This document shows, one piece after another, positions 28,736 to 32,254 of a stretch of DNA of 64,000 bases. Under the pieces are notes generated by a model. It worked only from the letters and a program-made list of their open reading frames with translations. It was not told where the DNA came from and ran no database searches. The stretch's first letter is position 1; each line of letters opens with the position of its first letter. This DNA is from Allocoleopsis franciscana PCC 7113. GTDB lineage: Bacteria > Cyanobacteriota > Cyanobacteriia > Cyanobacteriales > Coleofasciculaceae. Location: positions 1,525,501 to 1,589,500 of the forward strand of contig NC_019738.1 of the NCBI RefSeq assembly GCF_000317515.1. Direction: 5' to 3'. Both the position numbers and the translations under genes were made by a program.

Positions 28736-29425
28736 ATGTCAGCACAACTGTTACTGGTAGATGATGAGCCAGGAGTACGGGTATCGGTCAAAGAATACCT
28801 ACAAGAAGTTGGGGGTTTTGATGTACAGGTTGCCAGTAATGCCGATGAAGCATGGCAGATGTTGCAACGCAAAACACCAGACCTTGTGATTTCTGACGTC
28901 ATGATGCCCAAAGTTGATGGGTATCAGTTTCTGAAACAGTTACGTGATGACCCCCGGTTTAAAACTCTGCCAGTGGTCTTTCTCACCGCCAGAGGGATGA
29001 CTTCAGACCGAATTCAGGGTTATCACGCGGGGGTTGATGCCTATTTGCCGAAGCCGTTTGACCCGGATGAATTAGTCGCGATTGTTGAGAACTTATTGGG
29101 ACGCCGCACTGCTAATGCTGGAGAGGCATCAACCAGTACCGAACTAGAGCAAATTGCTCAGGAAATTGCGACAATTCGAGCCATGTTAGACCAAAGACCG
29201 GGCATTGCTCAAACCCCTCCCCCCATTCGCATTGATTTTACGCCGCGAGAGCAGAGTGTTTTAGATTTGGTGGCAGAAGGATTGATGAATAAAGAAATCG
29301 CCCGACGCTTAGAGACTAGTGTCCGCAATGTTGAGAAGTATGTCAGCCGCTTATTTAGCAAAACGGGAACCAACAGTCGCACGGAGTTGGTTCGTTACGC
29401 TTTGGAACATGGCTTAACCAAGTGA
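28736..29425 (+). CDS. NarL/LuxR-type response regulator (Ycf29-like)
   Basis: A 229-residue two-component response regulator. The receiver domain (about 1-120) has the acidic pair in LLLVDDEPG, the phospho-acceptor Asp in VISDVMMPKVDGYQFL at about residue 57, the switch Thr in FLTARG, and the Lys in LPKPFDPDEL. A linker with Gln/Glu-rich helix follows, then a LuxR-type HTH (about 160-229: FTPREQSVLDLVAEGLMNKEIA and SVRNVEKYVSRL). The receiver wording, MTSDRIQGYHAGVDAYLPKPF, recalls the plastid/cyanobacterial Ycf29 (TctD-like) group. No histidine kinase is adjacent, so it is an orphan. Targets are unknown. Confidence 0.9.
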   Translation: MSAQLLLVDDEPGVRVSVKEYLQEVGGFDVQVASNADEAWQMLQRKTPDLVISDVMMPKVDGYQFLKQLRDDPRFKTLPVVFLTARGMTSDRIQGYHAGVDAYLPKPFDPDELVAIVENLLGRRTANAGEASTSTELEQIAQEIATIRAMLDQRPGIAQTPPPIRIDFTPREQSVLDLVAEGLMNKEIARRLETSVRNVEKYVSRLFSKTGTNSRTELVRYALEHGLTK

Positions 29426-29518
29426 ATCGTTACATGGTTTCTTTTCTTCACAATTTGGGGTAATACAACCCCTCATAATATGTATTTAATTTGCATCTTG
29501 TAAAGAAAGATGTACTTT

Positions 29519-29567
29519 TCTAAGGTAATTCAGGGAAATCCTGATATTGTTCATTTATTACCTTAGA
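29519..29567 (+). promoter_or_regulatory. Structured leader ahead of the small membrane peptide
   Basis: A perfect 11-base inverted repeat, TCTAAGGTAAT (29519-29529) and ATTACCTTAGA (29557-29567), encloses a nested CAGG/CCTG hairpin. It ends 16 bases before the ATG at 29584, so in the transcript it would form a long stem-loop just upstream of the ribosome site. It could act as an RNA regulatory element or as a terminator-like block for the upstream transcript. Confidence 0.6.
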
Positions 29568-29583
29568 AAAAAGATAATAAAGA

Positions 29584-29703
29584 ATGAAAGTTTCACAAAA
29601 TAACAAACATTTAGGTGAATCAATTGCTCTGGGTGCTGTCTTAGTGGCAACGAGTGTTGGCATCTTTGTTGTGATGATGATGCAAAGCGGTGTCTTGCCC
29701 TAA
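29584..29703 (+). CDS. Small single-span membrane peptide, 39 residues
   Basis: The reading frame encodes a short polar N-terminus (MKVSQNNKHLGES), one hydrophobic span (IALGAVLVATSVGIFVVMMM) and the end QSGVLP. The size and shape recall the small one-span subunits of photosynthetic or NDH complexes, but it matches none that I know (PsbX, PsbY, PetM, PsaM and Psb30 were considered). An inverted repeat immediately upstream and a strong terminator 23 bases downstream frame it as an independent transcription unit. The gene is too short for most gene finders. The function is not assigned. Confidence 0.6.
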   Translation: MKVSQNNKHLGESIALGAVLVATSVGIFVVMMMQSGVLP

Positions 29704-29725
29704 AAAATTTAAGTAAATCAGTAAT

Positions 29726-29762
29726 TCATCCCGCAGTTAGTAGTTGTGGGATGAATTTTTTT
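29726..29762 (+). terminator. Rho-independent terminator after the small membrane peptide
   Basis: TCATCCCGCA pairs with TGTGGGATGA (ten pairs, one of them G-U) around a nine-base loop, followed by ATTTTTTT. It has all features of an intrinsic plus-strand terminator. Confidence 0.85.
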
Positions 29763-29844: not shown

Positions 29845-30432
29845 TCAATCCTCACCTTCTGCAAAATTAATCCTTTCGTAAAGTTCGCTAAAAGCAATTT
29901 TAAAATCGACCGATTGGAGAGAGAATACCGAATCTTCTGCTTCAAACTCAGTAAACAGCCATTGCCCCTCAGCCGTTTTCACATACTGCATCAGATGATA
30001 TTGAGATTGGTCGATTAAAATATATTCCCTCAACTCAGGAATTGACCGATAATACAAAAATTTATCGCCTTGGTCGTAATTTTTAGTAGACTTCGATAAC
30101 ACCTCAGCAATCAGCAATGGATTCATCACAGTCGTAGTATTCGTTCCTGTATAGGTAGGTTGGCCCTGGATTACCATCACATCTGGATAAGTGTACTGAC
30201 GATAACGAGGTATCCATAACCGTACATCACCAATATAGATATCGTATTTTTGCCCTTTTAAACCAAACTTCAAGTTAGCAGCAAAATTCAGAGCAATTTT
30301 GTTGTGATTCGTTGTCCCTCCTGTCATAGGAACGATATCTCCATCTTGGTATTCACTTTTGAATTCAGCCGCTTCCTCAAGTTCTAAATATTCTTCTGGA
30401 GAGTAGGAGCGTTTCTGTGTTTGTAGTTGCAT
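29845..30432 (-). CDS. Uma2 family (DUF820) predicted nuclease
   Basis: A 195-residue protein of the Uma2 family, which has a PD-(D/E)XK nuclease fold and is greatly expanded in cyanobacteria. Typical features are the N-terminal YSPEEYLELEEAAEFKSEY, the phrase DGDIVPMTGGTTNHNKI at about 31-47, the DVRLWIP segment with YPDVMVI at about 85-105, and the active-site strand LLIAEVLSKSTKNYD at about 106-120. The C-terminal YILIDQSQYHL strand is also standard. Its cellular role is unsettled; such genes are often mobile. It is divergent from the STAND gene across 46 bases. Confidence 0.9.
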   Translation of the reverse strand: MQLQTQKRSYSPEEYLELEEAAEFKSEYQDGDIVPMTGGTTNHNKIALNFAANLKFGLKGQKYDIYIGDVRLWIPRYRQYTYPDVMVIQGQPTYTGTNTTTVMNPLLIAEVLSKSTKNYDQGDKFLYYRSIPELREYILIDQSQYHLMQYVKTAEGQWLFTEFEAEDSVFSLQSVDFKIAFSELYERINFAEGED

Positions 30433-30478: not shown

Positions 30479-32254
30479 ATGAGCCAGAATAGCCAAAACA
30501 TATCGCCATCAGCCGTTAGTAGCCCCGCATTACCCTACTTTTACGATACTATTCCCCAAAGTGGAATCAGCCAATTTGTCGGGCGCGACAAGGAACTCGA
30601 AACCCTACACCAACTATTACAGGAACACGACCAAGTTGCAGTCACGGGTATCAGTGGCATCGGCAAAACCGAATTAGCCATTCACTACGCCAAGGCTAAT
30701 TTAAACCATTACACAGGCGGTATCTGCTGGTTATTTGCCCGTTCCGATTTAGGAGTGCAGATTGTAGAATTTTCGCTGTTGCATTTCCCAAATTTCACCA
30801 TCCCCGATAAACTAACTCCCACTACTCAAGTTCAGTATTGCTGGCAGTACTGGCAATCTCTACTTGTCTCTCCTTCCCAACAGGGGAATGGGGAGGTTCT
30901 CATCATTATTGATAATCTCACTGACTATTCCCAGATACAGTCCTACCTACCACTATCCTCATCTGGTTTTAAGGTACTAATTACCACAAGGCTGCAACTC
31001 AAACAGCCAGTACAGATGCTATCTTTAGACGTTCTATCACCACCCGCCGCCTGGGAATTATTAGCATCGCACATCGGCAAATATCGGGTGAAAGATACCA
31101 GGGGCAAGCCTTTTGGAATTGACTCTAAACGAAAACCAAGCAAACACAAGGTTAAGGCGAATCGAACTTCCGCATTTGTCCCCCCTCTTAAAGGAGAGGG
31201 ACAGGGGGAGAGGTTAACGGTAGCCCAACAGCTATGTGAATTGCTGGGTTATTTACCGTTAGGGATAGAGTTAGTAGGGCGGTATCTAGAACAAGAGCGG
31301 AATTTATCTTTAGAAAAGATGCGATCGCGCCTTGAACGTGCCTCCAAGAACCAATTACACTTGCAGCAACAGCACCTTAATCACGAGTCTATCATCCAGC
31401 CTGAAGCTAACACCGATAATAATTTAACAGCTCAATTGAGTATAACGGCAGCCTTTGAATTAAGTTGGAAACGTTTAGCTCAAGAGGCGCAAGAATTAGG
31501 CTGTTTGCTTAGTATATTTGCCTCAGCTCCTATTTCTTGGACACAAGTAGAAAGTGTATACGGTCAGCTATACCTACCAGGGGCTTTATTAGGACAATTA
31601 CTGAATATCTCACCCGATAATTCACAAGCCAATATTGAAAATCTGATAACAACGCTGCTAGCCAACCTCAAAGTATTTAGAAGTCAATTAATACAGCTAA
31701 ATCTATTGCAACATAGGGGAGAAGAAACGTATCAACTGCATCCACTGATTCGTGAGTTGTTTCAAGAAAAACTGGAAAGCTTAGAGCAATCCAGGAACTT
31801 AAAAGAAACATTTTGTCAAGTAATGATTGCTGTAGCCAAGCAAATTCCTGACTCACCCAGCCGCGATTTAATTGGGGCTGTGACTTCTGCCGTCCCCCAC
31901 ATAACAGAAGCCGCTACAACACTACAAGAATTTTTGAGCCATGAGGATTTAATCCAATCCCTAGAAGGCTTGGCCTGGTTTTATCAAAGCCAAGGGTTCT
32001 ATGACTTAGCCACCCCTTGGTGGGAGCAATGCGTCTGGCTCACGCAAAACTACCTTGGCTCAGATCATCCTGATTTGGTTACCAATTTACACAATTTGGC
32101 ATGGAGTTACTATGCTCAGGAGCGCTACACCGAAGCCGAACCCTTATCTGTGCAAGCCTTGGACATTTGTGAGCAAAAGTTAGGGGCAGAGCATCCCCTC
32201 ACAGTGGCAACCCGTAAAAACCTGGAAACTCTGTACCTGGTTCTCAAAAAATGA
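30479..32254 (+). CDS. STAND (NB-ARC) NTPase with C-terminal TPR
   Basis: A 591-residue signal-transduction ATPase. Residues 30-330 form an NB-ARC/NTPase module: FVGRDKELE, Walker A GISGIGKTEL at 57-66, Walker B in VLIIIDNLT, the VLITTR sensor strand, and GYLPLGIELVGRYL (GLPL motif). A winged-helix-like region follows, and the C-terminus has TPR-like units (HEDLIQSLEGLAWFYQSQG, DLVTNLHNLAWSYYAQ). Such proteins sense ligands and oligomerise, often in defence or regulated cell death. No N-terminal effector domain is present. An in-frame insertion between the NTPase and GLPL parts is described separately. The start ATG at 30479 lies 46 bases from the divergent Uma2 gene. Confidence 0.88.
   Translation: MSQNSQNISPSAVSSPALPYFYDTIPQSGISQFVGRDKELETLHQLLQEHDQVAVTGISGIGKTELAIHYAKANLNHYTGGICWLFARSDLGVQIVEFSLLHFPNFTIPDKLTPTTQVQYCWQYWQSLLVSPSQQGNGEVLIIIDNLTDYSQIQSYLPLSSSGFKVLITTRLQLKQPVQMLSLDVLSPPAAWELLASHIGKYRVKDTRGKPFGIDSKRKPSKHKVKANRTSAFVPPLKGEGQGERLTVAQQLCELLGYLPLGIELVGRYLEQERNLSLEKMRSRLERASKNQLHLQQQHLNHESIIQPEANTDNNLTAQLSITAAFELSWKRLAQEAQELGCLLSIFASAPISWTQVESVYGQLYLPGALLGQLLNISPDNSQANIENLITTLLANLKVFRSQLIQLNLLQHRGEETYQLHPLIRELFQEKLESLEQSRNLKETFCQVMIAVAKQIPDSPSRDLIGAVTSAVPHITEAATTLQEFLSHEDLIQSLEGLAWFYQSQGFYDLATPWWEQCVWLTQNYLGSDHPDLVTNLHNLAWSYYAQERYTEAEPLSVQALDICEQKLGAEHPLTVATRKNLETLYLVLKK
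31150..31215. repeat. Dispersed repeat inserted in frame in the STAND gene
   Basis: The core CCCCCCTCTTAAAGGAGAGGGACAGG is an imperfect palindrome of the CCCTCTCC/GGAGAGGG type, which usually sits between genes in cyanobacteria. Here it is translated as part of residues about 204-245, a low-complexity Lys-rich segment that homologous NB-ARC modules would not need. The frame is kept. Confidence 0.5.

Follow-up and report, generated by a model that had tools for sequence, protein, structure and literature searches.

The locus examined here lies in a stretch of 64,000 nucleotides from the chromosome of Allocoleopsis franciscana PCC 7113 (hereafter the window), where a very short open reading frame (ORF) is set between an inverted repeat and a putative terminator. 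This arrangement raises the question of whether the reading frame is a genuine gene, what its product could do and whether the upstream repeat takes part in its expression. A sequence-only reading of this DNA had described a stand-alone gene for a small membrane peptide, preceded by a structured leader and followed by its own terminator.

The ORF at 29584-29703 on the forward strand, stop codon included, encodes a 39-residue product, namely MKVSQNNKHLGESIALGAVLVATSVGIFVVMMMQSGVLP, with MKVSQNNKHLGES as its N-terminal start, and the one-span peptide described earlier is thus confirmed in the sequence. The AlphaFold2 model is a single helix from residue 3 to residue 35 (pLDDT 87.6). Since K2, K8 and H9 precede the helix core and no charged residue is found beyond it, the basic N-terminal segment should lie on the cytoplasmic or stromal side, and the helix of about 22 residues should end a few residues past the membrane. 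Ahead of the ATG, no clear Shine-Dalgarno sequence is present and only AAAGA directly precedes the start codon.

Relatives of this peptide form a family of one-span peptides of 31-41 residues, encoded by stand-alone ORFs, in which KHLG[QE]S is followed by the membrane helix; the general pattern reads M[KRN].S...[H/N]LG[QE]S, then about 20 hydrophobic residues. They were found in 104 of the 291 genomes of the order with a single-sequence search (E<=1) and in 117 of the 291 with a 33-row profile (E<=0.05), the weakest matches of the order-wide search including some chance ones within long ORFs. Additional families of the class also contain relatives, and a phylum-wide scan gave no convincing one beyond the class. 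Essentially one small stand-alone ORF is present per genome, and the gene is missing from many genomes of the order, close ones included. Regarding selection, a codon comparison of relatives gave an omega below 1 in all 175 pairs (median 0.17), an example being the pair L023 and L027, with a pS of 0.55 for a pN of 0.014. The reading frame is thus under purifying selection, as found for a conserved small-protein gene. The sequence-only reading had let its case stand or fall with the conservation of both peptide and hairpin in relatives; on this point the outcome is favourable for the peptide and unfavourable for the hairpin.

No family of Pfam, NCBIfam or PHROG fits the peptide, and profile searches (A1 and A3) against PDB chains returned no match at E<=10. 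The same PDB search can detect peptides this small, since the 34-residue PsbM used as positive control retrieved 29 chains. A literature search on the peptide motif gave nothing relevant. For want of any Pfam, NCBIfam, PHROG or PDB relative, the family is uncharacterised and the gene undescribed, probably missed by annotation because of its size. A phage origin was rejected, as neither a PHROG match nor a relative on viral contigs was found.

Among known small proteins, PetL, PetG, PetN, PetM, PsbM, PsbT, PsbX, PsbY, PsaM, PsaI, PsaJ, NdhP and NdhQ resemble the peptide in size (29-45 residues), single helix and short tails, whereas the new family has no sequence tie to any solved chain, is patchy in distribution and is absent from the libraries. 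The known small subunits of the photosystems, cytochrome b6f and NDH-1 were rejected by the PDB profile search, which supports the earlier remark that the peptide fits none of the known photosystem or NDH subunits. Another candidate was SliP4, also named HliR1, a 37-residue protein of Synechocystis sp. PCC 6803 controlled by RpaB and linking NDH-1 to the photosystems (PMC5126843, PMC12850537). According to the published primer sequences, HliR1 starts with MSNLIAV; its gene is located upstream of sodB and no homologue was reported outside Synechocystis (PMC5126843). Both proteins are very short one-span membrane peptides with a promoter of their own. They differ in that HliR1 has this distinct start without KHLGQS and in that the window gene has a Uma2-like ORF downstream on the opposite strand, not sodB. 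Identity with SliP4/HliR1 was rejected on the grounds of primer sequences and location.

The upstream neighbour of the peptide gene is a LuxR/NarL-type response regulator (28736-29425, forward strand), which is probably of the Rre1/Ycf29 type. Across the 71 genomes with listed positions for both peptide and regulator, the peptide ORF lies on the same strand within 1 kb downstream of the regulator ortholog in 38, starting 150-840 nt away, and 1-12 kb from it in 9 more. Several matches with E values of about 0.01-0.02 stand exactly 189 nt from the regulator, and gene order supports many family matches even where the score is weak. The regulator itself was found in 272 of the 291 genomes of the order (E<=1e-80), i.e. 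nearly all. On the other side, a convergent PHP-domain gene follows the peptide gene in 25 of the 53 loci with enough downstream sequence. Of note, the motif GCDAYLPKPF of the regulator has a cysteine in many orthologs and a valine in the window. In five genomes (L085-L089) of the window's own family, which by named matches includes Coleofasciculus, Symploca and Moorena, no such peptide is encoded directly after the regulator, which suggests that the gene was repeatedly lost or moved.

After the stop codon, an intrinsic terminator of 16 pairs plus a T run (29723-29757, forward strand; z -4.5) bears out the strong terminator announced by the sequence-only reading, and terminators were found at a similar distance in 19 of 61 loci compared with 0.35 in shuffles. 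Among the 61 upstream regions left after dereplication, two conserved elements were uncovered by motif search. The one closer to the gene has the form TGnTAnnnT, an extended -10 element, and stands about 43 nt ahead of the start codon, with a posterior of at least 0.9 in 46 of the 61 loci; in the window, it corresponds to 29541-29552 on the forward strand (CTGATATTGTTC), with TGATATTGT at 29542-29550 and the -10 proper at 29545-29550. Scored with a matrix from which this genus had been left out, the site ranks 5th among all positions of the 64-kb window, both strands included. The other is a 30-bp element, TATTAAGAAAnnTTACGTTAnTTTAAGTTT, made of three 8-mers spaced by 2 bases (10-bp period) and located at about -105, within -112 to -102 in 45 of the 61 loci. 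The likelihood was 153 for the -10 motif (31-38 in shuffles) and 527 for the 30-bp element (92-105 in shuffles), values that are indicative since the shuffles preserved no more than single-base content and the loci share common ancestry. The predicted transcript would start near 29557, some 7 nt after the -10 element, giving a 5' leader of about 27 nt (29557-29583, forward strand); with a predicted fold of only -0.4 kcal/mol, the stretch 29557-29600 is unstructured. Given the terminators of relatives and the conserved promoter, the gene appears to be a monocistronic unit, and its stand-alone character, as proposed earlier, is supported jointly by conservation, purifying selection, synteny and its own promoter and terminator.

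The triple repeat at -105 recalls the HLR1 element of RpaB, i.e. KTTACAWW-N2-KTTACAWW, from which RpaB activates transcription at -45 to -66 from the start site and represses it when placed over the start (PMC13421787). As in HLR1, the 8-mers of the family element recur every 10 bp, in the same register, upstream of the core promoter and at about the activating distance from the predicted start. Unlike HLR1, three repeats are present instead of two and the usual half-site is TTAAG rather than TTACA. The published consensus is matched at 13 or more of 16 positions in 22 of the 61 loci, when 11 were expected and the shuffle maximum was 18, which is a modest match. In the window, the corresponding site (29479-29508, forward strand) is a degenerate copy of the three 8-mers, scoring 6.2 bits and ranking 31 in the window. 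As the HLR1 match is modest and this copy degenerate, control by RpaB is a lead, not a finding. We infer control by an OmpR-type regulator. In searches with a 28-base upstream pattern, the sole matches in two relatives were at this gene and the own genome gave none, so that regulon-wide use of the pattern was rejected. The promoter footprint gives a direct handle on the regulator of the gene.

The inverted repeat lies over this promoter. Its left arm (TTTTCTAAGGTAAT, 29516-29529, forward strand) covers the predicted -35 region and its right arm (ATTACCTTAGAAAA, 29559-29572, forward strand) the start of the predicted transcript, the perfect arms being 14 bp long, 29 bp apart and enclosing an inner 5-bp hairpin. 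When the 105-nt upstream stretch was shuffled 300 times, a 14-bp arm never arose and an 11-bp one arose 3 times; the repeat reported earlier is hence real and beyond chance, though its perfect arms measure 14 bp and not 11. As RNA, the hairpin would fold at -20.4 kcal/mol (z -4.1 to -4.9). No Rfam family was found at the site.

The sequence-only reading had suggested that this stem-loop, as part of the leader, may control translation, which would require the transcript to begin upstream of 29516. A hairpin so stable, exceeding chance in the window and retained for the most part in the second genome of the genus that was compared (L002), speaks for such a long leader, but the conserved extended -10 element sits in its loop, and the name of leader is probably wrong since the hairpin spans this promoter element. 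With the predicted start near 29557 inside the dyad, only the right, 3' arm would be transcribed. Covariance offers the idea nothing either: L002 keeps most of the arms, but its stem contains an A-C mismatch and its inner helix is disrupted, the broken pairs are not compensated by any change and the fold reaches a z of -2.3 only, while the best arms of the other loci among the 61 are just 5-9 bp long and, in a 7-sequence family alignment, 52% of cells pair against 48% in shuffles. Conservation of the hairpin is thus confined to the genus and, as the RNA would start inside the dyad, translational control is unlikely; we consider the long-leader scheme quite improbable. The dyad is instead a genus-level feature of promoter DNA, perhaps an operator. 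A regulator contacting both arms, in the -35 region and over the first transcribed bases, could repress or activate the gene in this genus, for which perfect 14-bp arms on either side of the -10 element and the occurrence of the dyad in both genomes of the genus can be adduced. Against it, the arms stand 29 bp apart, L002 carries the mismatch and the palindrome occurs once in the 7.97-Mb genome, so that no regulon shares the operator and a repeated element or shared operator was rejected; operator function is a possibility that we hold rather doubtful. Placing the hairpin over the promoter removes a false RNA-switch lead.

As for the product, the tight synteny with the response regulator across many families invites the idea that the peptide works in the stress pathway of this neighbour, as a membrane-stress or kinase-modulating peptide, rather than in a bioenergetic complex. 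In the large family f33 and in some others, the gene is found elsewhere with motif and sequence kept, and nearly all genomes have the regulator, the many without the peptide among them; this role is thus unlikely. Much further down the scale, a type-I-toxin-like peptide under antisense control would agree with a short hydrophobic product and a structured upstream region, but single copy number, vertical synteny, strong purifying selection, a conserved promoter and the lack of viral-contig relatives make it very improbable indeed.

Our best guess, by analogy with cyanobacterial peptides of 30-45 residues such as PetL, NdhP and SliP4, is that the product may assist a membrane complex of photosynthesis or respiration as an accessory peptide. 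SliP4-type small regulators can tune electron-transport complexes (PMC12850537). Absence from many genomes of the order, close ones included, argues against a core photosynthesis subunit. In the proposed scheme, transcription would start from the conserved promoter with its extended -10 element; ahead of it, relatives carry the HLR1-like triple direct repeat with its 10-bp period, a type of site bound by OmpR/PhoB-type regulators. A redox- or light-responsive regulator such as RpaB would set the amount of peptide, and the peptide would most likely pack, as an accessory or regulatory subunit, against a complex of the thylakoid or plasma membrane. The inverted repeat of the window would surround the core promoter as a dyad specific to the genus, arisen by accident or serving as a local operator, and would not be an RNA switch. 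Taken as a whole, this explanation of a monocistronic one-span peptide gene has in our opinion an even chance of being right. Narrower and more tentative, and somewhat short of an even chance, is the proposal that the peptide is an unrecognised accessory subunit of a thylakoid complex under redox or light control, kept for the most part by cyanobacteria with large genomes and absent from all solved structures and family libraries. If it is a complex subunit, the peptide would be a new component of photosynthetic or respiratory membranes in such cyanobacteria. The family is under strong selection and has a very clear conserved promoter footprint.

Some further observations concern the surroundings of the gene. 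In family f33 (L043-L048, L127), where the gene is away from the regulator, the -105 repeat, reading CTAAGAAACTTTACGGTAATTTAAGTTTTAC, and the -10 element are kept, and often the terminator as well; in one f33 genome, the neighbours are a PAPS reductase and a Calx-beta gene, which give no functional clue. In the window, the site of the convergent PHP-domain gene of many relatives is occupied by a 195-aa ORF on the opposite strand (29845-30432, reverse strand), which resembles a Uma2-type protein and has no NCBIfam match. Beyond it, the forward strand encodes at 30479-32254 a 591-aa NTPase/TPR protein resembling, under the cut-off of that model, the TPR proteins of FxSxx-COOH systems.
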